From: Bacillus tequilensis KCTC 13622
GTDB taxonomy: Bacteria > Bacillota > Bacilli > Bacillales > Bacillaceae
Direction of reading: 5' to 3'
DNA: 64,000 nucleotides
Assembly: GCF_000507145.1 (NCBI RefSeq)
Contig: NZ_AYTO01000008.1
Coordinates: 62,001 to 126,000 of the forward strand
Below the pieces are notes generated by a model. The model did no database searches and had not been told where the DNA came from. It was given only the letters and a program-made list of their open reading frames with translations. The translations under genes and the position numbers were made by a program. Positions 8,379 through 55,317 of this stretch are shown here, in pieces (position 1 is the first letter of the stretch; every line of letters begins with the position of its first letter).

Positions 8379-8467
8379 ATTACATTATTTTCCTTTATAA
8401 TTGTTAAAAAATTGATTTATTTGTCGATATCAACCATAACAAAGTAAATGTGAAAAGAGGAAATGGT

Positions 8468-9637
8468 ATGCGCATAAAAGATAGTGTAAAGCTGCAACAC
8501 TTAGCACAACAAATCAATAAGCAAAGTTATTCATCTATCCGCAAAAAAGATACAGTCGCAAAACAGGAGAATCAGTTCCATGCTTACAAAAATTCATCGC
8601 CCGTACAAAGCAGCAACCTGAAACAAATCAATTATTCTAGAGAATCGGTAATGAGTGATAAGAATGAGGTCGCAAAACGATATCAATTAGCGAACGAGAA
8701 AACAGTTGTGGATACAGGTGAGGAAACGTTAATTCATAGCAGAAATCCATATGTTTCCGAAAGTGACATTGAAATTCAAATACTTAATGAAAAATATAGC
8801 CGAATCAATAGAATCAATTTATCAAAAGAGAATCCGATTGGTTATATACGCGACAAATATAAAAATGTCAATTCACCATATTTTCGTCATGATTTAACAA
8901 ACGAAGAGAGACAAGCAGCATATGACAATGAGACAGAGTGGCTTTATAAAGGAAAAGCGCAACATTACAATATGCGAGATGCGGCGTTTCGGCATGTTGA
9001 TATGTCTGGACCAAATGAGGATGATCGAGCAAAAGCATTTCAGCGAGATGTTGTGAATCAACAAATTGGCCTTCTCTTTGATCGCCAACACCTGACGATT
9101 CCAAAGAATACAAAATTAACATTTACCATTACCCCATTTGATTATGCTGCAACAGTGACAGGAACCAATGATCAAAAGGTAATTGACACGATTGAAGCCC
9201 TTTTGAATAGCGGCAGTAACAGCAAAGAATTATTTCAACATATTATCGGAAGCAGGACAGATGATTCCACACAATTTGAGAAAAAAACATACGACAAATA
9301 CCGAGTTGTTCGAGAAATATATGAAAAAACCGGTTATTATCTTGGTGATCTTCATGCCCAAAATGGAACTTACCTGACAGAGGACGGACGTGACATTTTA
9401 GATGTGTATCGTGAAGCATTAGAAAAAGATCCATTAACGAAAGACTTTACGTTAGTAGCGTTATCTCATTACGGATCTGAAGTAAAGCACCTTGCATCAG
9501 TTGGGTATGATACCGTTCCTGACTTGGTTTTATCGATTCATTATCAAAATGGATTCCTTGAGGATGCGGGCCAGAGCAAAAATTATAGTGCAAACAACCG
9601 CGCTTGGCTGCCGTCATTGCAGCTTTCGGATCGTTAA
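8468..9637 (+). CDS. YjcM/DUF4885-like protein of unknown function
   Basis: 389 residues from ATG 8468, which follows AAGAGGAA; a GTG at 8450 lies before that site. The protein is hydrophilic, lacks a signal peptide or membrane segment, and is rich in Asn, Gln, Lys and Ser at its N-terminus (RIKDSVKLQHLAQQINKQS). A more ordered C-terminal half contains FTITPFDYAATVTGTNDQKVI. From memory it resembles the YjcM/DUF4885 proteins of Bacillus; function unknown. Codon use is more A/T-rich than in sigL or lutP. It is followed directly by copy 2 of the sigL terminator, which serves as its terminator. Confidence 0.6.
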   Translation: MRIKDSVKLQHLAQQINKQSYSSIRKKDTVAKQENQFHAYKNSSPVQSSNLKQINYSRESVMSDKNEVAKRYQLANEKTVVDTGEETLIHSRNPYVSESDIEIQILNEKYSRINRINLSKENPIGYIRDKYKNVNSPYFRHDLTNEERQAAYDNETEWLYKGKAQHYNMRDAAFRHVDMSGPNEDDRAKAFQRDVVNQQIGLLFDRQHLTIPKNTKLTFTITPFDYAATVTGTNDQKVIDTIEALLNSGSNSKELFQHIIGSRTDDSTQFEKKTYDKYRVVREIYEKTGYYLGDLHAQNGTYLTEDGRDILDVYREALEKDPLTKDFTLVALSHYGSEVKHLASVGYDTVPDLVLSIHYQNGFLEDAGQSKNYSANNRAWLPSLQLSDR

Positions 9638-9650
9638 AACTGACATGATG

Positions 9651-9678
9651 ATTCCCTCCCGTGACGGGAGGATTTTTT
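9651..9678 (+). terminator. Duplicated terminator (copy 2) after the YjcM-like gene
   Basis: CCTCCCG-TGA-CGGGAGG followed by ATTTTTT. On the minus strand it lacks a T tract, unlike copy 1, so copy 1 keeps the left flank and copy 2 the right flank of what was probably one bidirectional sigL/lutP terminator. Confidence 0.8.
9655..9676 (+). repeat. 22-bp direct repeat, right copy
   Basis: Exact repeat of 7901-7922, at the right edge of the inserted segment. Confidence 0.85.
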
Positions 9679-11368
9679 AAGGAATCATCCAGCTGAACAC
9701 ATGATGCTGCAAAAAGGTAATGATGCAGACGAGCAGCAGTAAAAACAGGCTGTGCTTAATGGTAAAGCGGAAAAGATCTGACTCTTTTCCGGCGAGTCCT
9801 ACCGCTGCGCACGCCACCGCAATTGACTGCGGTGAAATCATTTTCCCTGTCACACCGCCCGAAGAGTTGGCGGCGACAGACAGAACAGGGTCCATGCCGA
9901 CCGATAACGCGGTGACTTTTTGCAGGTTGCCGAACAGCAGGTTGGCAGAAGTATCTGAGCCGGTAATGAAGACGCCGAGCCAGCCGAGAACAGGCGAAAA
10001 GAAGGTAAACATCGAACCTGTCAGTGCAAGTGTCATCCCGAGTGTCGTGCTCATTCCCGAGGAATTGGTAACATAGGCAAAACCAACGACAGAAGCGATA
10101 GTCAAAATCGGAAACTTCAACTCTTGGATCGTTTCCTTAAAAGCGGCTCCCCAGTCTTTCCACGAAATGGCCGTGATGAACTTTGACAGCACAGCGGCAA
10201 TCAATATCGCGGTGCCGGCCGAACCAAGCACCTCAAGCTTGTAAACCGCTTCAATCGGCGTACCGTCAGCATTTACAATTTGATTGTTCAAAAAAGGCAC
10301 ACCAGGTGCGAAAGTCAGTTTTTCGCCAACAGCATCCAGCCACTTCAAAAAAACAGCAGAGCCTTCATAATGCCCGGTCAGCGCGGATTTGACAGCTGGA
10401 ATACCCCATATAGAAATCATCACCGTCAGCAGCAGAAATGGCGACCAAGCTTTAAAAATCTGTCCGCCGCTATACGCAGCCGCAGCCGGATTCGTTTTCG
10501 CCATTTCAATCGCGGCGGCTGATTCCTGTTCACCGGCAAACCGGAATGTTGTTTTCGGCTTCCACACTTTCAGAAACACAGCAAGCGCAGCCATTGAAAC
10601 AAGTGCCGACAAAACATCAGGCAGCTCTGGTCCTAAGAAATTGGAACTGAGATATTGAACAACAGCAAAGGAAACACCGGAAACGAGAATCGCAGGCCAG
10701 ACCTCCAAGGCTTTCCTGAACCCGCTCATAATGATGATTAAATAAAGAGGAATAAATACAGATAAAAACGGCAGCTGGCGCCCGACCATTTGCGAAATCT
10801 CCATCGCCGGGATCCCTGTCGGCCCTTCTACGGCTGTAATCGGAATCCCAATCGCCCCAAAGGCGACCGGCGCCGTATTGGCGATCAAACAGATGCCCGC
10901 CGCGTAAAGAGGGTTAAAGCCGAGGCCGACCAGCAGCGCGGCAGAAATGGCGACCGGCGCCCCGAAGCCGGCAGCCCCTTCTAAAAAAGCCCCGAATGAG
11001 AAAGCGATCAGGAGCGCCTGAAGCCGGCGGTCATCCGTAATGGAGAGAACAGAACTGCGAATGATATCAAACTGCCCCGTTTTTACCGTGATTTTATATA
11101 AAAAAACAGACGTCACAATGATCCAGCCGATCGGTAAAATCCCGTATACAGCTCCTTGTGTCGCGGACATCAGCGCTTTTTCCGCCGGCATCCGATAAAC
11201 CAATACAGCAATGACAAGGGCGATCCCCAATGTCGCCAAGCCCGCTGTATACCCCTTCATCCTTTTAATCGCGAGCGCCCAAAAAAAGAAAATGATCGGT
11301 ACAAGTGCGGCAAGCGCTGATAAAAGCAAATTTCCCCCTATAGGCGTATATGCCTGTGTCCATTGCAT
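9677..11368 (-). CDS. lutP: LutP, L-lactate permease
   Basis: 563 residues, LctP (lactate permease) family, with about 12-14 hydrophobic segments and the family region FGAFLEGAAGFGAPVAISAALLVGLGF near residues 120-147. It imports L-lactate for oxidation by LutABC, encoded 13 kb away. The ATG (11366-11368) is preceded by a strong AAGGAGGGG. The promoter region carries a LutR operator. The length matches B. subtilis YvfH/LutP and not the shorter fermentation-associated LctP. Confidence 0.95.
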   Translation of the reverse strand: MQWTQAYTPIGGNLLLSALAALVPIIFFFWALAIKRMKGYTAGLATLGIALVIAVLVYRMPAEKALMSATQGAVYGILPIGWIIVTSVFLYKITVKTGQFDIIRSSVLSITDDRRLQALLIAFSFGAFLEGAAGFGAPVAISAALLVGLGFNPLYAAGICLIANTAPVAFGAIGIPITAVEGPTGIPAMEISQMVGRQLPFLSVFIPLYLIIIMSGFRKALEVWPAILVSGVSFAVVQYLSSNFLGPELPDVLSALVSMAALAVFLKVWKPKTTFRFAGEQESAAAIEMAKTNPAAAAYSGGQIFKAWSPFLLLTVMISIWGIPAVKSALTGHYEGSAVFLKWLDAVGEKLTFAPGVPFLNNQIVNADGTPIEAVYKLEVLGSAGTAILIAAVLSKFITAISWKDWGAAFKETIQELKFPILTIASVVGFAYVTNSSGMSTTLGMTLALTGSMFTFFSPVLGWLGVFITGSDTSANLLFGNLQKVTALSVGMDPVLSVAANSSGGVTGKMISPQSIAVACAAVGLAGKESDLFRFTIKHSLFLLLLVCIITFLQHHVFSWMIP

Positions 11369-44073: not shown

Positions 44074-44215
44074 TGCAAACTTTCCTAGCGTCATTCTTAT
44101 TCTCCTTCTATTTCATTACCTTGATTTGGTAATTAGTATTCATTTTATTGCTTTTTAAAGGAATCAATACTGCAGAACCGAAAAGATAGGAGTGAATAAG
44201 AGGAGGAATGTGAAG

Positions 44216-45493
44216 ATGAAAATGATATTGATGTCAGCAGCACTGGCCGGAAGCGTTATATGGGGAGCTTCAGCTGCACAGCTGAACGAGTCGCAGCCTC
44301 ATTCCGTTTCAGAAAAGGCCCCGTTGTTTGATGAAGAGCATGCATATGAAACCATTCATGAGCTTAGTGAAGTCATAGGACCGAGAGAAACAGGGACAGA
44401 GAAAGAAAAAGAAACGGCATCATACATATCAAAACGGCTTCAAGATGAGGGATTAACTGTCCGCACTCAGCCATTTCATGTGAAAACATATTTTTCTGGT
44501 TCAGTCATGGCAGGCGATCACGAGTATCCAATACGCTCAGCAGATAAGACCGCTGTTGAAAAGGAAGAAAAATTAGAGGCTGGCGTCTTTGACGGTGGCT
44601 ATGGGTTAAGCCTTGATGTAAAAGAAGCAAAAGGAAAAATTGCCGTTATCAGAGAGGGAAAAATATCAGTAGCTCAAAAATTAAAAAACGCCCAAGATGC
44701 TGGCGCAAAGGCTGTCATTATTTATAACAGCAAGACAAAACCCCTCGCGATCCGTCCGATAAAACCAAAACAAATCACAATACCGGCAGCCGGGATGAAA
44801 AAAGAAGACGGAGAAGCTTTACTGAAAGAAAAGCAGGCTGTCATTCAATTTAAAAACTATCAAAACCGCACTTCACAAAATATAATAGGGACACGCAAAG
44901 CGCAGCATACAAAACACCCGGATATTCTTTATGTAACGGCCCATTATGACACAGTTAAAGGTGCACCAGGGGCTGATGATAATGCATCAGGCACATCTGC
45001 TGTTCTGGAGATGAGTAAGCAAAGCAAGGATCTTCCCAAAAACAAAGAAATCCGTTTTATCTTATTCGGAGCTGAAGAGCTGTGGTCAGCGGGTTCCTCA
45101 TATTATGTCAGTACGCTTACTTCAGATGAAATCAAACACAGCCGTGCGAACTTTAACGCTGATATGATTGCAACTGATTGGAAAGAAGCCAGCCAATTGT
45201 ATATAACCACTCCGGATGGCAAAAAGAATGCAAGTGTCAATTATGCGGTACATGCTGCCCAGAAGGCCCAGCTTGACGCACCTCGCCTTACCCAGCTTGG
45301 ATACTCTGATCATGTGTCATTTTATGAAGCGGGCATACCTTCAGCTAATTGGATTTGGCTCAGCCCGGATAAACAAGAGCCTGGGTCATGGTATCACACT
45401 GAAAATGATAATATAACACATATCAGCAAAGAAAGATTAAAGGAAGCGGGGCAGCTCTTGCTATCTGCTGTAAAAGAGGCAAATATGAAATAA
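44216..45493 (+). CDS. Secreted M28-family aminopeptidase with PA domain
   Basis: 425 residues from ATG 44216, seven bases after AGAGGAGGAA; a GTG at 44192 precedes that site. Signal peptide MKMILMSAALAGSVIWGASA. A protease-associated (PA) domain (~105-215) lies inside an M28 zinc peptidase. Metal ligands are in VTAHYDTV (His, Asp), GADDNASG (Asp), GAEELW (Glu), NADMIAT (Asp) and GYSDHVSF (His). It resembles B. subtilis aminopeptidase YwaD in architecture. I do not recall a gene here in 168, where yvbK follows eno. The intergenic region carries ATTACC-N7-GGTAAT (44115-44133), a possible operator. Confidence 0.85.
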   Translation: MKMILMSAALAGSVIWGASAAQLNESQPHSVSEKAPLFDEEHAYETIHELSEVIGPRETGTEKEKETASYISKRLQDEGLTVRTQPFHVKTYFSGSVMAGDHEYPIRSADKTAVEKEEKLEAGVFDGGYGLSLDVKEAKGKIAVIREGKISVAQKLKNAQDAGAKAVIIYNSKTKPLAIRPIKPKQITIPAAGMKKEDGEALLKEKQAVIQFKNYQNRTSQNIIGTRKAQHTKHPDILYVTAHYDTVKGAPGADDNASGTSAVLEMSKQSKDLPKNKEIRFILFGAEELWSAGSSYYVSTLTSDEIKHSRANFNADMIATDWKEASQLYITTPDGKKNASVNYAVHAAQKAQLDAPRLTQLGYSDHVSFYEAGIPSANWIWLSPDKQEPGSWYHTENDNITHISKERLKEAGQLLLSAVKEANMK

Positions 45494-45656: not shown

Positions 45657-45684
45657 TTTACCGTTTTTTTACTTTTGGTATAAT
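45657..45684 (+). promoter_or_regulatory. Promoter of the nine-gene aminosugar operon
   Basis: TTTACC (45657-45662), 16 bases, TATAAT (45679-45684) with extended -10 TGG. The leader of about 65 bases contains ATCGATCGAT (45691-45700). Further upstream (45580-45650) TCGTAGG and CCTACCGA form a loose inverted repeat. No known riboswitch was recognised. Confidence 0.7.
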
Positions 45685-45754
45685 AGCTTTATCGATCGAT
45701 AATTGTTTAATTTTGTAAAAAAATATCCTTTTCTATCTTATAGGAGGGCCAAAA

Positions 45755-47089
45755 ATGAATCCTGTCACAAAAGAAGCTCGAAACCTCGGTCATAAGCGGC
45801 TTTTAGAATTGATTGAAACAAAACAGGCTGTCGTAGGTGTATTGGGGATGGGATATGTGGGATTTCCTCTTGCATTGGAATGTGTCAATAAAGGATACAG
45901 CGTCATCGGCTTCGATAAAAACAGTGAAAAAGTTTCTTTGCTGAAAGACGGACACAGCCATATTCGGGATATAGACGATAACCAATTAAAAGAGGCGCTG
46001 CACACAGAGCGTTTTCAAGTGAGTGAAAATATGTCTCTCATTGAACACTGCGACATCGTTGTGATATGCGTTCCGACACCTTTGAACAAAAAAGACAAAA
46101 TTCCTGATCTCAGCTACATAGACAGTGCGGTTGACACCATGCTGGCTTATGGAAGGCCAAATCAGCTTTTAATTTTAGAAAGTACAACCTATCCGGGGAC
46201 AACCAAACAAAAAATTGCTGATCGAATGGCATCAGGGCGGCAGGTGAACATAGGCTCCGACTTTTTTATCGCTTATTCTCCTGAACGAATCGATCCTGGA
46301 AACAGCCAATATGAAGTCGCCGATATCCCTAAAGTGGTCGGCGGAATGACCCGGAATTGCACAAAACTTGCCTCAGCGTTTTACAACACCATCGTTACAA
46401 GCGTTCATCCAGTAACCTCACCAGAAGTAGCAGAAACAGCTAAACTCCTAGAGAATACCTACCGTTATGTAAATATAGCTCTCATCAATGAAATGGCACT
46501 CAATTGCCGAGAACTCGATATTGATATATGGGACGTGATCAATGCGGCAGACACGAAGCCGTTCGGGTTTCAAAAGTTCAGCCCCGGCCCTGGCGTAGGC
46601 GGCCATTGTATACCGATTGATCCTTTTTATTTTAAATGGATAGCCAATCAAAAGGGATTACAGACAAAGCTGATTGATCTAGCGGATGAAATTAATTCTG
46701 AAATGCCGTTTTCAGTGTCCGACTATGCCATGAAGCTGGTTGATAAAGAACAATGCAGTATTTTATTAATAGGCGCCGCTTATAAAAAAAATACCAATGA
46801 TTCTCGTGAGTCTTCTGCATTTGCAATTATCGGTGATTTAATGAAAAAGGGATGCACGATAGATTACTATGATCCATTTATCAGTGAAATCCGCTTAGAA
46901 GACGGCAGCACCAAGCATTCCGTTCCTTTCACGAAGGAGCAGGTCAATCAATATGATGTTGTCATTATCCATACTGATCATGATGATATCAATTACAGCA
47001 TCTTGCGGGATGCAGCACCTATTATTTTCGATACCAGAAATATTTGCAGAGAAAAAATGGCTGACTATGCAAACCTTGTCACACTATAG
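45755..47089 (+). CDS. UDP-HexNAc 6-dehydrogenase, WbpA type (aminosugar operon gene 1)
   Basis: 444 residues, ATG after TAGGAGGG. NAD-binding VVGVLGMGYVGFPLALE (~25-45), CVPTPLN, LESTTYPGTT, substrate-binding SPERIDPGN, catalytic Cys in GPGVGGHCIPIDPFYF (~283-298) and the C-terminal GAAYKKNTNDSRES. The TKPFGFQKFSPGPG segment resembles WbpA-class enzymes, which oxidise UDP-GlcNAc to UDP-GlcNAcA, more than UDP-glucose dehydrogenases. This would feed the pathway with a nucleotide HexNAc uronic acid. First gene of a run of nine in one direction with spacing of 12 bases or less, or overlaps. The substrate is inferred from family resemblance only. Confidence 0.85.
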   Translation: MNPVTKEARNLGHKRLLELIETKQAVVGVLGMGYVGFPLALECVNKGYSVIGFDKNSEKVSLLKDGHSHIRDIDDNQLKEALHTERFQVSENMSLIEHCDIVVICVPTPLNKKDKIPDLSYIDSAVDTMLAYGRPNQLLILESTTYPGTTKQKIADRMASGRQVNIGSDFFIAYSPERIDPGNSQYEVADIPKVVGGMTRNCTKLASAFYNTIVTSVHPVTSPEVAETAKLLENTYRYVNIALINEMALNCRELDIDIWDVINAADTKPFGFQKFSPGPGVGGHCIPIDPFYFKWIANQKGLQTKLIDLADEINSEMPFSVSDYAMKLVDKEQCSILLIGAAYKKNTNDSRESSAFAIIGDLMKKGCTIDYYDPFISEIRLEDGSTKHSVPFTKEQVNQYDVVIIHTDHDDINYSILRDAAPIIFDTRNICREKMADYANLVTL

Positions 47090-47101
47090 GAGGGAACGAT
47101 C

Positions 47102-48268
47102 ATCAGTAAACAATTTATCTCTTTTCACAGACCTGATATCACAAATGAAGAACTGGAAACTGTAGCCGAAACGATCAAGTCAGGGTGGATTTCAAAAGGT
47201 CCGAAGGTGATTGAATTTGAAAAAAAGCTGGGCGAATATTTAAGCGCAGAGCACGTCATCAGCTGTAATTCAGGAACAGCAGCCTTGCATATGGCATTGC
47301 TTGCACTCGGTGTAGGAGAAGGCGATGAAGTCATAGTTCCAAGCTTCACGTTTTGTTCAAGTGTAAACGTCATTTTGCATGTCGGAGCAACCCCGGTTTT
47401 TGCCGATATTTGCGAGGACGATTTATGTATAGATCCGGAAGATGTCAGACAAAAACTTTCTCCGCGCACAAAAGCGGTCATTGCGGTTCATTTTGCAGGT
47501 TATCCGGCAAATTTGGATGAGCTTAGCGGCATATGCAAGGAACATGGGCTGTATTTGATTGAAGATGCCGCTCACGCGTTAGGGACCAGGTATAAAGGGA
47601 AGATGATCGGCACGCATGGAGATGCCGTATGCTTCAGCTTTTATGCCACCAAAAATATAACGACGGGAGAAGGGGGAGCTCTGATTCTTCAGGATGAAGC
47701 AGCGGCCGAGAGAGCAAGACTGTATGGGTGGCACGGCATTACTAAAAATGCTTGGAACCGCTACGGTGAAAAGGGCAGCTGGCGATATGATGTTTTGCTT
47801 CCCGGCTTTAAGTACAACATGACAGACATTCAAGCTGCGCTAGGGCTCATTCAATTGAAACGAGCTGCTGAGATCCAAGAAAAACGCACAAAAATCGCAA
47901 ACTATTATGCGTCTGAGCTTATCAATCAATCAGAAAGAGCAGCACTTCCTTTGACAGACATTCCAAGCCACGTTACTCACTCTTGGCATCTGTTTATCCT
48001 TCGGGTGAAAAAACGCGGGGAAATGGAGCGAGACCAGTTTATTGAAAATATGAAAGCGAAACATATTGGCTTGAGTGTCCATTTCATTCCTGTGCATATG
48101 CATCCCTACTATAGAGAGCATTTTCCCGCAAAGCTGCCGGTAACTGAACGCATCTTTTCTGAAATTGTATCATTGCCTCTTTATAGCCAATTATCGAAGG
48201 AAAATTGTCAATATATCGTTCAATCCATTAAAGAAGTTTTATCTTTAAGCCAGGAGGTCGGACAATGA
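47102..48268 (+). CDS. DegT/DnrJ/EryC1 aminotransferase lacking a normal start codon (gene 2)
   Basis: Counting from ATC 47102, 388 residues, the normal family length. The family N-terminus is present (FHRPDITNEELETVAETIKSGWISKGPKVIEFE), followed by SCNSGTAALHMAL, cofactor-binding EDAAHALG, PLP lysine in SFYATKNITTGEGG and the C-terminal HFIPVHMHPYYR. Between the in-frame TAG of gene 1 (47087-47089) and this N-terminus there is no ATG, GTG, TTG or CTG: the codons are GAG GGA ACG ATC ATC AGT. A strong AGGAGGG (47088-47094) sits seven bases before ATC 47102. The first standard in-frame start, GTG 47207, would cut off 35 conserved residues and has no ribosome site. Either translation starts at ATC or an ATG has been lost. 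Likely role: amination of a UDP-4-keto sugar. Confidence 0.8.
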   Translation: MSKQFISFHRPDITNEELETVAETIKSGWISKGPKVIEFEKKLGEYLSAEHVISCNSGTAALHMALLALGVGEGDEVIVPSFTFCSSVNVILHVGATPVFADICEDDLCIDPEDVRQKLSPRTKAVIAVHFAGYPANLDELSGICKEHGLYLIEDAAHALGTRYKGKMIGTHGDAVCFSFYATKNITTGEGGALILQDEAAAERARLYGWHGITKNAWNRYGEKGSWRYDVLLPGFKYNMTDIQAALGLIQLKRAAEIQEKRTKIANYYASELINQSERAALPLTDIPSHVTHSWHLFILRVKKRGEMERDQFIENMKAKHIGLSVHFIPVHMHPYYREHFPAKLPVTERIFSEIVSLPLYSQLSKENCQYIVQSIKEVLSLSQEVGQ

Positions 48269-49194
48269 AACACATAGCTATCTTAGGCGGAGCGGGTTTT
48301 ATAGGAAGTGAATTAGCGAGGTTATTAGAGACTAAGGGTTATCATACGATTATCGCTGATCAAAAAAAGCCGGATTTTCAGGCGGAATTTCGGCAAACGA
48401 ATATTTTAGACCGGCAATCGCTGCGGGAATCATTGAAAGGAGCGGATGCTGTCGTTCATTTAGCGGCTATGGTCGGGGTAGACAGCTGCCGCAGCAATGA
48501 AGAAGACGTGATCAAGGTGAATTTTGAGGGAACGAAAAACGTAACCGAAGTATGCAAGGAGCTAAGGATCAAGACGCTTCTTTTCTCCTCCAGCTCAGAG
48601 GTATTCGGGGATTCACCCGATTATCCGTATACGGAATTGAGCAAGAAGCTCCCAAAATCCGCTTATGGAAAAGCAAAGCTGAAGTCGGAGGAATATTTGA
48701 AAGAGCAGGCATCAGACTCGCTGCATGTCAGGGTTGTCCGGTACTTTAATGTATACGGCCCGAAGCAGCGGGAGGACTTTGTTATTAACAAGTTCTTCAG
48801 TTTGGCTGAAGCTGGCGCGGAGCTTCCTCTTTATGGAGACGGCGGCCAAATCAGATGCTTTAGCTATATTAGCGATATCGTGAACGGAACATATCTGGCA
48901 CTTTTGCACAAAGGCAGTGCTTTTGAAGATTTCAACATAGGAAACGATCTGCCAATCAGCATAAAAGGATTGGCAGAAAAAATCAACGTGATGACAGGCA
49001 GGAAGAAAGAGAATTACACCTTTAAAAAGCTGGGTGAGGATGGCGTGCGGAGTAAAGACATTGAAATTTTCAAGCGTGCTCCCTCGATCGAGAAGGCAAA
49101 GCGCCTGCTTGGATATGCTCCTAAAGTTCACCTTGAGGAAGGCCTGAGGATGATTAAAGTTGAAAGACGAAAACAAAAACTTCCATTATCCTGA
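48265..49194 (+). CDS. Extended SDR, UDP-uronate decarboxylase/epimerase type (gene 3)
   Basis: 309 residues, ATGA overlap with gene 2, AGGAGGTC upstream. Rossmann GGAGFIGSELARLL, active-site SSSSEVFGDSP (~110-120) and YGKAK (Tyr/Lys ~135-139), RYFNVYGPKQ (~160). Ser-Glu before the V(F/Y)G motif is what UDP-glucuronate decarboxylases (UXS, ArnA C-domain) carry; C4 epimerases usually have Ser-Ala/Thr there and dehydratases Asp-Glu. After a UDP-GlcNAcA-forming enzyme, a decarboxylase would give a UDP-2-acetamido-4-keto-pentose. An epimerase cannot be excluded. Confidence 0.82.
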   Translation: MKHIAILGGAGFIGSELARLLETKGYHTIIADQKKPDFQAEFRQTNILDRQSLRESLKGADAVVHLAAMVGVDSCRSNEEDVIKVNFEGTKNVTEVCKELRIKTLLFSSSSEVFGDSPDYPYTELSKKLPKSAYGKAKLKSEEYLKEQASDSLHVRVVRYFNVYGPKQREDFVINKFFSLAEAGAELPLYGDGGQIRCFSYISDIVNGTYLALLHKGSAFEDFNIGNDLPISIKGLAEKINVMTGRKKENYTFKKLGEDGVRSKDIEIFKRAPSIEKAKRLLGYAPKVHLEEGLRMIKVERRKQKLPLS

Positions 49195-50404
49195 AAATCC
49201 GAAACAGATCAAGTTTCCCATTTATGCGGGTCAGCTTTCAGGCAGAAATCTTTTCCCGGCAGTCACACATTTCATCTCAGCTAAAAGAACAACGTTGGCA
49301 GAAAAATTGGAAAAACGCTATGGAAAGGGTATCGAATTAACTTCAAGCGGCAGTGCGGCATTAGTGCTTGCACTGGCGTTTTCCGGAGCGGGTCCTGGAA
49401 AAGAAGTGATTTTTTCATCATTCAGCTGTCCGAATGTCATTGATGCTGTGCTTCAATCCGGAGCCTCGCCGGTTTTTGCCAATCTGGATGATGATTTGTC
49501 CCTATCCTTTGAAGATGTCAAAAACAAAGTGAGCGAGAGGACATGCGCTGTCATTTTGACACATGTATACGGCCGGAAGGAAAACATGAAACTTATTGAG
49601 TGGGCGAAAGAGAAGCGCATTCGTGTCATCGACGATGCCGCTCAGGCTATGTTTACAAAACAAGCCGGAACTTTTGCAGGCGGATTGGGGGATTTCGGCA
49701 TCTTGAGCTTTGGGCCGTCAAAGCCTCTCAGCAGTATAGGGGGCGGAGCGTTAATCGCTCGAAAAGAGGTTCTGGAGAAAAACGGCAGGCTGCCGATGGA
49801 ACAGCGAAAGCAAGTCAATGCTGATTACTATGCTTATATGAGACAGCAGCGAATACAGGTTTTGATGAGATCTAGGACTCTGTCTTTCTTATTGAGAAAA
49901 ATGGGTGTTCAGACTTCTATGAAAACGAGCAAGCTTGAAGTCCTTCCGAAAACACCTGCTACTGTCCCTTTATTGCGAATGCATCCGGTGAGACAAGCTA
50001 TGATCGAATACCAGCTGTCAAAGATGGAGCGGCTGGTGAAAGACTCATCTAAAAATTTGGAGACTGCAAAATGCATTTTTGCGCAGGCAGAAGAGTTATA
50101 CGGGATCAAGATGATACAGCCGCAGGAGGGAGAAAGCCTGAACTATTTGACAATCGTCTTTCCTCATGAAGGCCAAAGGTACGACTGCTCCGCTTATTTA
50201 GCGGCAAAAGGGATTCAAACCTGCTGGAACTACCTTCCCCTTCACCTTATTCCGCTGTATCAGCCTTATTCACGGCAAGAGGATGAACATTCTCTTTGGA
50301 AAAGGGTTCTTTCACTGCCGTTCAAACCGCCTCTAGGTACAGAGCAGGTGAAGTATATTGCTGAAACTGTTTTAGCGTATGCAGAGCAAAAGAATAAGAA
50401 ATGA
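49160..50404 (+). CDS. Second DegT-family PLP aminotransferase (gene 4)
   Basis: 414 residues from TTG 49160, which lies 35 bases inside gene 3; the next in-frame Met is far downstream inside the fold. TSSGSAALVLALAFSGAG, IDDAAQAMF (PLP-binding Asp) and LSFGPSKPLSSIGGG (PLP Lys) are present, so it should be a working enzyme. It diverges strongly from gene 2 and EpsN and has an extra basic stretch (~215-260, YMRQQRIQVLMRSRTLSFLLRKMG). Its substrate is unknown. A role in a second amination, or in making a D- or unusual amino acid side chain, is conceivable but unsupported. Confidence 0.8.
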   Translation: MKDENKNFHYPENPKQIKFPIYAGQLSGRNLFPAVTHFISAKRTTLAEKLEKRYGKGIELTSSGSAALVLALAFSGAGPGKEVIFSSFSCPNVIDAVLQSGASPVFANLDDDLSLSFEDVKNKVSERTCAVILTHVYGRKENMKLIEWAKEKRIRVIDDAAQAMFTKQAGTFAGGLGDFGILSFGPSKPLSSIGGGALIARKEVLEKNGRLPMEQRKQVNADYYAYMRQQRIQVLMRSRTLSFLLRKMGVQTSMKTSKLEVLPKTPATVPLLRMHPVRQAMIEYQLSKMERLVKDSSKNLETAKCIFAQAEELYGIKMIQPQEGESLNYLTIVFPHEGQRYDCSAYLAAKGIQTCWNYLPLHLIPLYQPYSRQEDEHSLWKRVLSLPFKPPLGTEQVKYIAETVLAYAEQKNKK

Positions 50405-50420
50405 ATGTTGGTGATATATT

Positions 50421-51302
50421 GTGCAAAACACAGCGAATTTGGTAACTCGTCAAGCATGGGATCGGGCAGCTGGCATATTTCAGACTGGATTGTTTCAAAG
50501 CTATGATTGGGGGAAGCTCATGGAAGAGCTCCCCAATACCTCGTTTCATCCCATTAAGCTGATATCGGACGGCGGGCAGGTGATATATGTTCCGGTGTTT
50601 GAGCAGAATGGCTTGCTCAGCGGGAATATGATCGGTTACGGCGGTGTCATTTCAGACCGTCCGATTTCATTTGAATGGCTGCAAAGCGAAATCGAGGCTT
50701 TATTTGGACAGAAATTATCGCGGCTCCTGCTTCCGCATGGCCAAACTTCTTTTATCGAAGAAAAGGGAGAACAATGGGCGGAGAAAGCCACACATATATT
50801 GACGCTTCCCGATACATTTGAAGAGCTATGGACAAACTGTTCGGGAAAAGCTCGGACTGCCGTCAGATATGCGGAGAAGAAAAATGTGTCCGTCCGCCTA
50901 ATCGGACAGGAATTGATACCTGAATTTTACGAACTGTATAAGGCGCATACAGCAGCGATCGGCGCAGCCTATATGCTGAGTCAGGATTTTTTTCAAAAGC
51001 TGCTAGAAAGCCTTGGAAGGCAAGTCTTTTGGGTAGGGGCATTTCTTGAGAGTGAAATGATCAGCAGCAGTATTTTTCTATATGACCATTCCCATTTCTA
51101 TTATTGGCAAAATGTAAACAGCCCTGCCGGAAAAGAAACGCAGGCCTCTTATTTGTTAATGCGCAACGCTTTATCATTCGCCATCGGCAAGAAACTGCAA
51201 TGGGTTGATTTTGGATATTCTCACAGTAAAGAAATTGCCCGACCGAAACGATATTGGGGAGCTGAAGAGAAACGATGTCGACATTTCACAGAAGCGGAGT
51301 AA
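50421..51302 (+). CDS. FemAB/GNAT-like acyl or aminoacyl transferase (gene 5)
   Basis: 293 residues from GTG 50421, with only a weak ribosome site. Double-GNAT FemAB-like layout: FQSYDWGKLMEE near residue 26, GKARTAVRYAEKKNVSVRL (~140-158), a second GNAT lobe with ASYLLMRNALSFAIGK, and the C-terminal DFGYSHSKEIARPKRYWGAEEKR typical of the family. FemAB proteins move amino acids from aminoacyl-tRNA onto amines; related Acetyltransf_6 proteins act in polysaccharide loci. In this operon it is the best candidate to acylate the sugar amine with an amino acid. Confidence 0.75.
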   Translation: MQNTANLVTRQAWDRAAGIFQTGLFQSYDWGKLMEELPNTSFHPIKLISDGGQVIYVPVFEQNGLLSGNMIGYGGVISDRPISFEWLQSEIEALFGQKLSRLLLPHGQTSFIEEKGEQWAEKATHILTLPDTFEELWTNCSGKARTAVRYAEKKNVSVRLIGQELIPEFYELYKAHTAAIGAAYMLSQDFFQKLLESLGRQVFWVGAFLESEMISSSIFLYDHSHFYYWQNVNSPAGKETQASYLLMRNALSFAIGKKLQWVDFGYSHSKEIARPKRYWGAEEKRCRHFTEAE

Positions 51303-51304
51303 AG

Positions 51305-52033
51305 GTGGTAAGCGGCCATCAATCCAGTTATCTCCCATGGTATGGTTTTTTTGAAAAAATCTACAAATCAGATGTATTTGCGATTCACGATACAGCCCAG
51401 TTTGAGAAAAAGGGATTTCTCAATCGGAACAGGATTAAAACATCCCAAGGCCCGATGTGGCTGACTGTTCCTCTGCAAATGAAAAATTACAAGGATATCA
51501 GACTTCGTGATATGAAAATCGATCAAGAACAGGACTGGCGGAAGAAACACTGGATGGCGATTAAAATGAATTATGCGAAAGCTCCCTATTTCGAGGAATA
51601 TCAAATGTTTTTTAAAGATGTCTATCAGCGGGAATGGGAGTACCTTCATGATTTAAATATGTTCATCATTGATTTTTTTCTGCGGGAACTTCGTATATCG
51701 ACGCCAATTTGCTATGTGTCGGAGCTTGAATGCCAAAATGAAAAAAAGAGTGATTTTGTGCTCGCGCTTTGTAAGGAACTTGGGGCTGATCACTATTATT
51801 CAGGCAGCCAAGGATCAGACTATTTAATAGAAAGTGATTTTGATAAAAGCGGAATTACAATCGAATACCAGCAAATCAGAGCCATACAGTATCCACAGCT
51901 GTTCGGGGAGCACATTCCTCATCTCTCTATGCTTGATATGCTTATGAATTGCGGAGCGGATATTTCCGAAACGTTAATTAAAGGGGGACAATATGATGAA
52001 AGTAATGGTATTTGCGGCGCACCCGGACGATGA
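51305..52033 (+). CDS. WbqC family protein (gene 6)
   Basis: 242 residues from GTG 51305, two bases after gene 5, with GGAG six bases upstream; ATG 51275, which overlaps gene 5, is the alternative and adds ten residues. Starting at GTG the protein opens VSGHQSSYLPWYGFFEKIYKSD, which matches the WbqC family start (HQPxYLPWxGFFxKI). FEKKGFLNRNRIK and WLTVPLQ follow. WbqC proteins occur in O-antigen and aminosugar loci, often near aminotransferases; their reaction is not settled as far as I know. A role in N-acylation of the amino sugar is plausible. The 3' end overlaps gene 7 by 41 bases. Confidence 0.8.
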   Translation: MVSGHQSSYLPWYGFFEKIYKSDVFAIHDTAQFEKKGFLNRNRIKTSQGPMWLTVPLQMKNYKDIRLRDMKIDQEQDWRKKHWMAIKMNYAKAPYFEEYQMFFKDVYQREWEYLHDLNMFIIDFFLRELRISTPICYVSELECQNEKKSDFVLALCKELGADHYYSGSQGSDYLIESDFDKSGITIEYQQIRAIQYPQLFGEHIPHLSMLDMLMNCGADISETLIKGGQYDESNGICGAPGR

Positions 52034-52673
52034 AATTATCGGCGTCGGCGGAGCATTGGCGAAACATGTCCGCCAAGGAGACAGTGTGTCGGCTGTCATT
52101 ATGGCTGAAGGTAAATCGTCTAGAAAAGAAGATTATGAAAAACCTTGTGATTCGATCATGCAGCATTCCTATAGTGAGACGGAACAAGCGCTTAGCACGC
52201 TCGGCATAAGCGATTTTGTCAGGTTGAATCTTCCTGATAACAGGCTTGATTCAATGGATTTGCTAGATGTAGTAAAAGAAGCAGAAAAACAAATTGAACG
52301 GTTTCAGCCCGATATCGTATATACACAATACGGCGGTGACATTAATATTGACCATGCTGTCGTATTCAGAGCGGTGATGACAGCAACCCGCCCGCTTCCG
52401 GGTCATTCCGTAAAACAGGTTCTCGCATACGAAACGTTATCCTCGACTGAGTGGAACTACTTGAATAAGGATCAATTCCATGCAAATTTCTTCATTAATA
52501 TAGAAGAAGAGCTTGAACTGAAGCTGAAGGCCATGGCGTGCTATGATTCAGAGCTGAGGGATTTCCCGCATCCGCGATCCTTGCAAGCGATAGAAAATAA
52601 CGCGTACGTATGGGGAGCAAAATCGGGTTTTTCTGCAGCAGAAGCATTTATGCTTGTGAGAGGGACGTGGTGA
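51993..52673 (+). CDS. PIG-L/LmbE family N-deacetylase (gene 7)
   Basis: 226 residues; ATG 51993 follows AAAGGGGGACA, and ATG 51996 is equally possible. Zinc motif AHPDDEIIGVGG (~9-20) and the second ligand region YTQYGGDINIDHAVVFRA (His ~117). Family members remove N-acetyl groups from GlcNAc-type sugars (GlcNAc-PI, MshB, BshB, teicoplanin deacetylase). Here it would expose the amine at C2 after the amino group at C4 has been modified. It is not the bacillithiol deacetylase by context. Confidence 0.88.
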   Translation: MMKVMVFAAHPDDEIIGVGGALAKHVRQGDSVSAVIMAEGKSSRKEDYEKPCDSIMQHSYSETEQALSTLGISDFVRLNLPDNRLDSMDLLDVVKEAEKQIERFQPDIVYTQYGGDINIDHAVVFRAVMTATRPLPGHSVKQVLAYETLSSTEWNYLNKDQFHANFFINIEEELELKLKAMACYDSELRDFPHPRSLQAIENNAYVWGAKSGFSAAEAFMLVRGTW

Positions 52674-52676
52674 CGG

Positions 52677-53594
52677 ATGATTGCGCAAATACCGTTTTTC
52701 GGGTTAGACCCGAAGCAAATCGATAAAAAGTGGGTCGAAGCAGGATACGGTCTTGAAGCCAACATCTTCGACGGAAAATCGTTTGAAGAAACCGATTATG
52801 TGAAAACTTTTAAGCGGGCACTTGATTACACAAAACAGCTTGAGCCGTCATTATTAACGCTTCATTTTCCCACCGACAATGCGGATTATGTTCACAAAGC
52901 GCATATAAAGGACCGTCTGCTGCAATTTGCAGAGCTTGCGGATATGTACGGCGCTAAGGGCATCACTGTTCATGCCAATCAATTTATGTCCGTTGAAGAA
53001 TTCCAAGGCTATGATTTAGAAGGAAACCGTAGAAAAGTCATTGAATTTTTTGCTGCGTTTGATGATGAACTGAAGGGCACGGATATATGGATTGGAGTCG
53101 AAAATCTGCCGATTATCGGGAATTTGGGCGAAGACTTTGACCCGATATTTATTTATCCTGAGGATTTTGAGGAACTGATTCAGCTCGGATTAAAACATGT
53201 CGGCATTACATGGGATCTGTGTCATTGGGCCATTACCTATCAGACACATCTGTCATCATCACTTATGTTCAGGGATGAAAAACTGAGATACCCTGATTTT
53301 TTTCAGTTTCTTAGCTTACAGGAAAGCATAAAACATTATCATTTCAGTTCGTTTCGCCAGCTAGCCTTCCCGCATGGCGATGTCCGCTGTTTTGAAGGGC
53401 GCCATCCTGCGGAGGGAACGATTAATGAATCGTTGCTCAGACAAGCGGCGGAGATGTTAAAGGAAATACATCGCGATGACGGCACGGGTATCGTATTTGA
53501 AGTGATGGAAGAGGACTATACACAAAGAAAAGAATCATGGAGAACATTAGAATGGTTCGGCGGTGCTTCTGATGAAGATCAAAAAACGACGTGA
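52677..53594 (+). CDS. Xylose-isomerase-like TIM-barrel sugar isomerase/epimerase (gene 8)
   Basis: 305 residues, three bases after gene 7. AP-endonuclease-2/sugar-isomerase type barrel: LLTLHFPTDNADYVHKAHIKDR, KGITVHANQFM, WIGVENLPI (Glu ligand), GITWDLCHWAI (Asp/His ligands), HYHFSSFR and GIVFEVMEED (final Glu). The metal-ligand pattern is complete, so an isomerase, epimerase or lyase on a small sugar is likely; the substrate is not known. Its end overlaps gene 9 by 23 bases. Confidence 0.78.
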   Translation: MIAQIPFFGLDPKQIDKKWVEAGYGLEANIFDGKSFEETDYVKTFKRALDYTKQLEPSLLTLHFPTDNADYVHKAHIKDRLLQFAELADMYGAKGITVHANQFMSVEEFQGYDLEGNRRKVIEFFAAFDDELKGTDIWIGVENLPIIGNLGEDFDPIFIYPEDFEELIQLGLKHVGITWDLCHWAITYQTHLSSSLMFRDEKLRYPDFFQFLSLQESIKHYHFSSFRQLAFPHGDVRCFEGRHPAEGTINESLLRQAAEMLKEIHRDDGTGIVFEVMEEDYTQRKESWRTLEWFGGASDEDQKTT

Positions 53595-54804
53595 TTCGGC
53601 ATATCGAACACCAAATTATGCAAAGCTTTGGTCTGCACAAGTATTTTCTTCTGCGGCGGATGGCGTCTGGCTTATTGCGCTTCCGCTCCTTGTGCTCGAT
53701 TTGACCGGAAGCAAAATATTAGTCGGAGTGATTTCTTTTATCGAGCTTGTTCCCCTGACCTTCGGAATGTTTACAGGTCCCTTAATTGATTCTTTACGAA
53801 AAAAATCGATATTGTATTTGTGTAATACCGGAAGGGCAGTCATCATGATTCTTTTGGCAGTCCTTAGCGCGAACGGTTTGTTAACTGTATGGATCATTGG
53901 TGTATGCGCATTTTGTTTATCGCTGCAATCAATGCTCTTTTCCCCGGCGAAAGTGGCGCTTATTCCGCTGCTTGTCCCTCAGAAACATCTCGATCAAGCA
54001 ACTTCTTTAATCAATACAAGCGAGCTTATTGGCCTGATCGTTGGAAAGCTGATCAGCGGCGTTTTGATTGCGGCGATTCCGTTTGGGCTGCTGTTTTTCA
54101 TTAATGGGACCGCATTTTTTGTATCCGCTGTATTTATTGCTTTTATTCGAATTTCAGAATCTGCCGGCCTAAAAAGCAAAGGGGCAGAAGCCCTTAAGAC
54201 AGGGTACAGAATGCTGAAAAGCAACTCATCTTGGATGACTGCTGTCGGTTATTTTTTTATCGTGAATCTTGTCATTGCCGGGTTTATTTCTGTAATGGGG
54301 CCGATTCTTGCAGTGGAACGTTTTCATGAGAACTATTCCGTATGGTTCGCCATCATGTATTCAATGTTTCAGGGCGGGATGCTCTTAGGGAATCTGGCTG
54401 TATTTTTCAAGTGGAATACCAAGCGGCTAGAACGGCTCTATCCCAGAACGTTAACAGCGGTAGGACTGCTCATGATGTTTTTGTTTTTTTCGCTTAACGG
54501 GCTGGAATGCGTCATTTTTTTAGTGCTGGGCGTCATCATTTCCTATATTGATGTGCAAACGGTTCTGTATTTTCAAAAGACAGTTCCGACTGAATACTTC
54601 GGGAGGATATTCGCGCTTATTTTTTCTATCGTAAAGATGGGAGAACCTCTATCAGCAGCTGCTTATACAGTGCTTCTTGTGGTTATGGACGCTGATTATA
54701 TTTTTCTGGCTGTCGGTCTGACCCTCACGCTTACTTTTTTCATACTGTCAGTGAGACAAGGAATGCAGAGAGATGCCGGAAAAAAAGCGAATCAGTATTT
54801 TTAA
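53572..54804 (+). CDS. MFS exporter (gene 9)
   Basis: 410 residues from ATG 53572; GTG 53563 is in frame but less well placed. Twelve membrane helices, MFS_3 (enterobactin-exporter/macrolide-efflux-like) type: YRTPNYAKLWSAQVFSSAADGVWLIALPLLVLDLTGS at the N-terminus, FTGPLIDSLRKK at loop 2-3 and VPTEYFGRIFALIFSIV in the C-half. As last gene of the operon it most likely exports the product and gives self-protection. No other resistance gene is seen. Confidence 0.85.
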   Translation: MKIKKRRDSAYRTPNYAKLWSAQVFSSAADGVWLIALPLLVLDLTGSKILVGVISFIELVPLTFGMFTGPLIDSLRKKSILYLCNTGRAVIMILLAVLSANGLLTVWIIGVCAFCLSLQSMLFSPAKVALIPLLVPQKHLDQATSLINTSELIGLIVGKLISGVLIAAIPFGLLFFINGTAFFVSAVFIAFIRISESAGLKSKGAEALKTGYRMLKSNSSWMTAVGYFFIVNLVIAGFISVMGPILAVERFHENYSVWFAIMYSMFQGGMLLGNLAVFFKWNTKRLERLYPRTLTAVGLLMMFLFFSLNGLECVIFLVLGVIISYIDVQTVLYFQKTVPTEYFGRIFALIFSIVKMGEPLSAAAYTVLLVVMDADYIFLAVGLTLTLTFFILSVRQGMQRDAGKKANQYF

Positions 54805-54813
54805 TTTCAATAG

Positions 54814-54848
54814 AAAAGAGCTGCCGATGATCATACGGCAGCTCTTTT
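54814..54848. terminator. Terminator between the aminosugar operon and yvbK
   Basis: AAAAGAGCTGCCG - ATGATCATA - CGGCAGCTCTTTT, a perfect 13-bp stem, bidirectional. Confidence 0.92.
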
Positions 54849-54849
54849 A

Positions 54850-55317
54850 TTAAAGATCCAAATACAGCCTTACCATATCGCGGCATTGAATTCCGTTTTC
54901 AAAAATGTCCTCATCATAATGTCTGACAAAGAAATCGTGGTCAATCGCCTGAAGGCGGAATCCGCATTTTTGGTAGAGAGACAGCTGATGAATGCTGGAA
55001 TTCCCCGTGCCGATTTCAATCGTATCCGCACCCAGCTCCTTTGCCTTTTCGATGGCGTCTCGTACAAGCTGTTTGCCAAAGCCCTTCTTCTGAAGAGATT
55101 CTTTTACGGCAATATTTACAATTTCAACTGTTTGCGGCCTTGTTTTCAGCAATACATAAACACCTGCAAGCTCATCACCGGACCAAGCCGTGTAACATTC
55201 TCCTCTCTCAAGATATTCGTCTACAATGTCTTTGGAAGGATCGGCGAGCAGCAATAAGTCGTATAATTCGTCATTTGTTTTTTTAGCTAATTGAACCCTA
55301 AGCTTTTGCATATTCAT
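54850..55317 (-). CDS. yvbK: YvbK, GNAT N-acetyltransferase
   Basis: 155 residues. GNAT fold with acetyl-CoA loop QKKGFGKQLVRDAIEKAKELG (~74-94) and GTGNSSIHQLSLYQKCGFR. Substrate unknown. It faces the aminosugar operon across a shared terminator. In 168 it is the gene next to eno, so it marks the right border of the accessory block. Confidence 0.92.
   Translation of the reverse strand: MNMQKLRVQLAKKTNDELYDLLLLADPSKDIVDEYLERGECYTAWSGDELAGVYVLLKTRPQTVEIVNIAVKESLQKKGFGKQLVRDAIEKAKELGADTIEIGTGNSSIHQLSLYQKCGFRLQAIDHDFFVRHYDEDIFENGIQCRDMVRLYLDL

Follow-up and report, generated by a model that had tools for sequence, protein, structure and literature searches.

A candidate prumycin-type aminoacyl-diaminopentose operon in Bacillus tequilensis and its relatives in two phyla

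The window analyzed here is a 64,000-nucleotide stretch of Bacillus tequilensis KCTC 13622 (contig NZ_AYTO01000008.1, positions 62,001 to 126,000 of the forward strand), and its positions 45755-54804 hold an operon of nine forward-strand genes. On balance, the gene content suggests that the product of this operon is a small, exported antibiotic of the N-aminoacyl-2,4-diamino-2,4-dideoxypentose class, either prumycin or one of its close congeners, with less confidence for prumycin itself than for the compound class. Prumycin is an amino-acid amide of a 2,4-diaminopentose and carries a D-alanyl group. An earlier note, made from the letters of the window, had proposed a prumycin-type route; its families, amination, aminoacylation, deacetylation and export are supported, while genes 4 and 8, the removal of UDP and the D-alanine had been left unexplained.

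According to Pfam, the genes encode, in order, a nucleotide-sugar dehydrogenase, a DegT aminotransferase, an SDR protein, a second DegT aminotransferase, a FemAB/Acetyltransf_6 protein, a WbqC protein, a PIG-L protein, an AP_endonuc_2 TIM barrel and an MFS protein (Table 1), in agreement with all nine domain assignments made before. The intergenic distances from gene 1 to gene 9 are 12, -4, -35, 16, -28, -41, 3 and -32 bases. The extended -10 of the promoter-like site is kept in all five aligned species, and the promoter scan as a whole gave 25 sites against 22.4 in shuffles, which is no excess. The terminator hairpin at 54814-54848 folds at -21.3 kcal/mol (z -6.7), a value that none of 200 shuffles equals. 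The coordinates, the conserved -10 and the hairpin fold thus agree with the earlier description of nine tightly spaced same-strand genes with a promoter before and a strong terminator after. No glycosyltransferase, flippase or polymerase is found by Pfam among the nine genes, as had also been claimed.

Table 1. Features of the operon and its surroundings, with positions in the window.
Feature	Position	Strand	Basis or remark
M28-family aminopeptidase-like gene	44192..45493	+	PA and M28 domains (Pfam), N-terminal hydrophobic segment
Promoter-like site	45657..45684	+	TTTACC-16-TATAAT, TG preceding the -10
Palindrome TATCGATCGATA, possible operator	45690..45701		just 3' of the -10
Gene 1, nucleotide-sugar (UDP-HexNAc-type) 6-dehydrogenase	45755..47089	+	NCBIfam, PDB matches
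Gene 2, ArnB/PseC-like DegT aminotransferase	47102..48268	+	NCBIfam, PDB matches; AUC start
Gene 3, extended SDR, probable UDP-HexNAcA decarboxylase	48265..49194	+	end-to-end alignment, motif
Gene 4, second divergent DegT aminotransferase	49160..50404	+	Pfam; Lys of SFGxxKP
Gene 5, FemX-like aminoacyltransferase	50421..51302	+	Pfam, profile, Foldseek
Gene 6, WbqC family protein	51275..52033	+	Pfam
Gene 7, PIG-L/BshB-type N-deacetylase	51993..52673	+	Pfam, NCBIfam, HPDDE motif
Gene 8, xylose-isomerase-like TIM barrel, rare family	52677..53594	+	Pfam, alignments, distribution
Gene 9, MFS exporter	53563..54804	+	Pfam, NCBIfam; 10 hydrophobic segments
Terminator hairpin, shared with convergent yvbK	54814..54848		13 pairs, T run at end
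yvbK, GNAT acetyltransferase, core gene	54850..55317	-	Pfam

The proposed route would begin with gene 1, which would oxidize UDP-GlcNAc to UDP-GlcNAcA. The protein scores 406 bits with TIGR03026, above the cut-off, and the ManNAcA-DH and TviB models outscore the UDP-glucose DH models, all of them below their own cut-offs. Gene 3 is a probable UDP-HexNAcA decarboxylase that would convert UDP-GlcNAcA by oxidative decarboxylation into a UDP-2-acetamido-4-keto-pentose. Its residues 2-296 align with UDP-glucuronate decarboxylase 1 over the full length, and an SSE or TSE motif is present in all seven aligned sequences, so that it combines the full-length SDR homology and the Ser-Glu active-site pair of UXS/ArnA-type enzymes. 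This pair marks decarboxylases but occurs beyond them too. Gene 2 would then aminate C4 with ArnB-like stereochemistry to give an L-arabino 2,4-diamine. ArnB aminates a UDP-4-keto-pentose and PseC acts on a 2-acetamido 4-keto sugar; ArnB-like C4 amination of the 4-keto-pentose proposed here would give the L-arabino configuration, which is that of prumycin. Scored against NCBIfam as the protein from 47159, without its first 19 residues, gene 2 reaches 363.5 bits with ArnB (NF008658, cut-off 631 bits) and 355 bits with PseC, both under the cut-off, and ArnB or putative ArnB proteins take the first four places among its PDB matches; the protein appears ArnB-like and is not classed as ArnB. These families and rankings support the amino-sugar-nucleotide pathway and the ArnB-like amination that had been proposed.

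The amino acid, probably alanine from Ala-tRNA, would be placed on N4 by gene 5, perhaps together with gene 6. The top Foldseek matches of gene 5 are FemX and Sbb17/Sba18 with streptothrisamine, at about 15% identity for Sbb17/Sba18, and a second look agrees. A profile of seven sequences brings up 13 PDB sequences. FemX/FemA proteins and Sbb17/Sba18 fill the first nine places (E-values of 4e-5 for FemX, 0.0095 for Sbb17 and 0.55 for Sba18), and the other four are weak and unrelated. The window protein exceeds the Pfam FemAB cut-off, and the FemAB model matches six of the seven members at E 0.001. Gene 5 thus has both the FemX-like profile and the fold that define a FemABX-type enzyme, which supports the FemAB-type aminoacylation of the earlier note. 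A lysine in its C-terminal motif (K276) is invariant in all seven sequences and may be the counterpart of the FemX/DhpH-C lysine. Aminoacyl-tRNA is the donor of FemX-type enzymes, and gene 5 is probably aminoacyl-tRNA-dependent. Orf11 of the BD-12 pathway is reported, in the part of the source available, to use Gly-tRNA for the aminoacylation of an amino-sugar intermediate (PMC12945691).

The acetyl group on N2 would be taken off by gene 7, the sugar would be freed from UDP by a step that has no gene in the scheme, and gene 9 would export the product. The HPDDE motif of gene 7 is kept in five of five aligned sequences, and the family assignments of genes 7 and 9 sustain the proposed deacetylation and export. 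The real start of gene 9 is probably the ATG at 53572. Genes 4 and 8 may serve to invert the stereochemistry of the amino acid, to introduce another amino group or to release UDP. The Lys of SFGxxKP in gene 4 is kept in all seven sequences, and the structure model of gene 8 (pLDDT 42.5) is unusable.

The operon is accessory in Bacillus. The gene 5 profile matches in five of 44 Bacillus genomes, and the four other carriers, which include Bacillus sp. ISL-51 and B. atrophaeus (loci L013 and L014), share both the nine genes and their order; in each of them a peptidase gene and yvbK flank the set, and eno lies upstream. The identities of their nine proteins to those of the window are 91-98%, 70-95%, 68-89% and 65-93%. 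Of the 39 operon-less genomes, 14 were examined, and eno directly adjoins yvbK in 12 of them; in the stretch L053 yvbK alone was found, and in L054 the two genes lie about 3.4 kb apart. An accessory operon between eno and yvbK had been claimed earlier, and this holds. The nine genes of that unit also stand, but its boundary does not, as the upstream M28 peptidase gene had been missed. At 71-100% identity this gene occurs in all five genomes with the operon and is missing from the remaining 39; a further 21 matches listed for the genus, with E up to 1e-60, are paralogues of 44-50% identity elsewhere in the genome. The Bacillus island therefore comprises ten genes, present or absent as a whole. 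Among genome contigs, two of 105 candidate stretches were confirmed as relatives of gene 5, both among the five carriers.

Two distant copies carry the same families. In genome G338, from another family of Bacilli, one contig (locus L040) encodes, in order, the dehydrogenase, aminotransferase 1, the SDR, a 712-aa protein, aminotransferase 2, the FemX-like protein, WbqC, PIG-L, the TIM barrel, MFS and GNAT. Eight families show 37-59% identity to the window proteins by blastp, and the MFS protein gives a weak alignment (24% across 186 residues, E 3e-4). The plasmid pJCM12687 of Mycobacterium branderi (locus L055) carries an Actinomycetota copy, annotated as dehydrogenase, TIM barrel, DegT, epimerase/dehydratase, DegT, GNAT, WbqC, PIG-L, MFS, GNAT and alpha/beta hydrolase. 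All eight biosynthetic families align at 22-50% identity by blastp, with the match of aminotransferase 2 limited to 168 of 414 residues, and its MFS and last GNAT have no blastp match to those of the window at E 0.01. Since the same eight families recur jointly in three lineages, a chance grouping of the genes is rejected. Moreover, because a fixed biosynthetic core is combined with exchanged exporters in these two further lineages, the comparison supports a free, exported small molecule as the likely product.

The family of gene 8 is rare. Copies of the TIM barrel were found in three of 398 genomes of the class, one of 398 of the phylum (that of the window itself), one of 18 and one of 59 around G338 (G338 itself each time) and one of 72,556 plasmid records; the genome sets of these searches overlap. 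No relatives were confirmed on viral contigs. A plasmid stretch of S. cattleya with a 50.7% hydrolase was set aside, as its 25 kb contain no other gene of the cluster.

Self-protection like that of puromycin producers, by acetylation, export and unmasking outside, is likely by analogy. In puromycin producers, as described in the available part of PMC11641026, an acetyltransferase blocks the drug, the blocked form is transported out, and an N-acetylhydrolase frees it outside. Here, a GNAT protein (YvbK in Bacillus) would block the amine inside the cell, and the MFS protein would export the blocked compound. Outside, it would be unblocked by a secreted hydrolase, in Bacillus the M28 peptidase, which is probably secreted in view of its N-terminal hydrophobic segment. 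The M. branderi cluster has all three kinds of protein at its end: an MFS protein, a GNAT and a TAP-like hydrolase that bears a hydrophobic segment at its N-terminus. The G338 cluster ends in MFS and a YvbK-type GNAT, and the Bacillus operon ends in an MFS gene facing yvbK, with the M28 peptidase gene upstream. We read this as the same protective logic served by different proteins across three lineages. The earlier note made no error in the families of its gene set but missed this acetyltransferase that recurs beside the cluster. Two points weigh against such a scheme: yvbK is a widespread core gene (found in 43 of 44 Bacillus genomes, with its family in 129 of 250 Bacilli genomes), and no secreted hydrolase was recognized in L040. 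Co-transfer of the YvbK-like gene of L040 from Bacillus with the cluster is not supported, because nine of the 18 genomes of the family to which G338 belongs, G338 included, have strong matches with E up to 1e-40, the protein family is common in Bacilli as just given, and several relatives are closer to it (up to 64%) than that of the window (57%).

Several points also weigh against the prumycin-type pathway as a whole. Genes 4 and 8 belong to the core in three lineages and are idle in the simple scheme, the release of UDP has no gene in it, and none of the 25 NCBIfam models listed of 32 reaches its cut-off with gene 3. tRNA supplies L-amino acids, and the D-alanine of prumycin is not tRNA-borne, which counts against exact prumycin. 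As D-alanine and the idle core genes are left unexplained, gene 4 or gene 8 may invert or modify the amino acid, or the product may be a congener. It is on account of the idle genes, the UDP release and the D-alanine that the compound class is preferred by a modest degree only and prumycin itself by less.

The alternative that survives best is that the operon makes another secreted amino-sugar metabolite. Gene 3 would then act as an epimerase or dehydratase, or the product would be moved well past prumycin by genes 4 and 8, and the logic of building, exporting and protecting would be kept; taken jointly, this seems rather unlikely. The retention of genes 4 and 8 in all three lineages speaks for it, as does the PseC-like aminotransferase 1 of M. 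branderi, and the function of the SDR protein is not settled by its PDB scores, which are nearly equal (8vr2 107.3, decarboxylase 106.3 and epimerase-domain protein 103.6 bits). In the Bacillus version, however, the SSE motif and full-length decarboxylase match of gene 3 and the first rank of ArnB for gene 2 fit a 4-keto-pentose.

Nucleotide-sugar supply for a wall, capsule, spore or flagellar glycan, with glycosyltransferases elsewhere, is disfavored and looks improbable. FemAB, WbqC and UDP-HexNAc dehydrogenases are usual in glycan loci, and of 17 other Bacilli genomes with WbqC, nine, which belong to two genera only, have a DegT aminotransferase at a distance of no more than about 1.5 kb from it. 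Against this, three clusters in two phyla show none of the glycan genes sought and each has its own MFS exporter, and the operon occurs in only a small minority of Bacillus genomes. For glycosyltransferase, flippase and polymerase, there was no hit in the gene table of L055, which is possibly incomplete, nor among the cluster open reading frames of L040, where the scan covered the cluster only and the 712-aa frame has no Pfam match. A match of operon proteins in Bacillus pellicle proteomics was dropped, as the sole PIG-L passage in the part of that source available is annotated bshB1 (PMC12020853).

Returning to the operon itself, the palindrome TATCGATCGATA is possibly its operator. It has a single site in the 3.98 Mb genome and is intact in four of five aligned species, with a single base change in the fifth (L009). 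A regulator gene is absent among the ten island genes. Gene 2 begins at the ATC at 47102, since this codon follows 8 bases after the end of a ribosome-binding site and its frame in the window has no ATG, GTG or TTG ahead of 47207. All five Bacillus species start the gene with ATC or ATT, and the copy in G338 uses ATG. A conserved rare start codon of the AUC/AUU type is known mainly from infC, and its conservation here hints at translational control of gene 2. As side observations, transposase-like open reading frames flank the L040 cluster (read off the list of frames), and its 712-aa protein (8439-10577), between the SDR and aminotransferase 2, has no Pfam or NCBIfam match. In L055 (14379-18304), genes annotated as RES-family NAD+ phosphorylase and helix-turn-helix protein lie just upstream of the cluster and an AbiE-type pair lies further upstream, so that the plasmid carries toxin-antitoxin-like genes there.

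Prumycin was described in 1971 and has been credited with biocontrol of cucumber powdery mildew, according to reference titles in PMC8772736. No biosynthetic gene cluster for it was found in the open-access literature searched, with subscription papers mostly outside that set. It is tentatively proposed that this is the first recognized prumycin-type cluster, with a mobile eight-gene core in Bacillota and Actinomycetota, tRNA-dependent aminoacylation, and protection by acetylation, export and unmasking through whichever secreted hydrolase is available; new in this analysis is the likely puromycin-like scheme of self-protection. With the cluster in common soil Bacillus species and a copy in a second phylum, prumycin biosynthesis becomes directly testable. 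If the proposal is true, aminoacyl-tRNA-dependent amide formation would extend to pentose antibiotics, and WbqC and the TIM barrel, families of unknown role, would gain a pathway for study.

Among known systems, b-Cool of Bordetella was set aside, as it has only the UDP-GlcNAc 6-dehydrogenase step in common as far as described (PMC12407052). For the opening steps and the deacetylation, Bacillus cereus NVH 391-98 and the incednine genes offer precedents. In the former, UDP-GlcNAc is reported to be converted to UDP-XylNAc (available part of PMC5078965); by the reactions described, its UDP-GlcNAc 6-DH and UXNAcS resemble the first two steps proposed here, but the pathway stops at UDP-N-acetylxylosamine. 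For incednine, IdnS2, IdnS3 and IdnS1 are proposed as the dehydrogenase, XylNAc synthase and deacetylase (PMC11284099), and, in the part of that source available, the UDP-GlcNAc 6-dehydrogenase, synthase and deacetylase resemble steps of the operon, although the incednine sugar has no C4 amination or aminoacylation and is placed by a glycosyltransferase on a macrolactam.

ArnA and ArnB carry out oxidative decarboxylation and then C4 amination on the way to UDP-L-Ara4N. Gene 2 matches ArnB first, whereas gene 1 and the likely substrate are of the HexNAc type. In the streptothricin group, Sbb17/Sba18 and Orf11 of BD-12 are described, in the parts of the sources available, as FemX-like, aminoacyl-tRNA-dependent and acting on an amino-sugar antibiotic precursor; their acceptor differs from that of gene 5, and Orf11 is likened by description. 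The puromycin cluster (PAC, Pur8, NapH) shares the logic of acetyltransferase, exporter and secreted hydrolase, as far as its available description goes, and this is clearest in M. branderi, whereas in Bacillus the candidates are an M28 peptidase and a core GNAT; the likeness is one of logic. Compared with prumycin, which is reported to stop protein synthesis (a passage of PMC8772736), there are two extra core genes here and the D-alanine is unexplained, the likeness being predicted from the genes. The expected skeleton, however, is the same, and the producers reported in the available parts of the sources, B. amyloliquefaciens SD-32 (PMC8772736) and Streptomyces F-1028 (PMC10458361), belong to the two phyla of the cluster.

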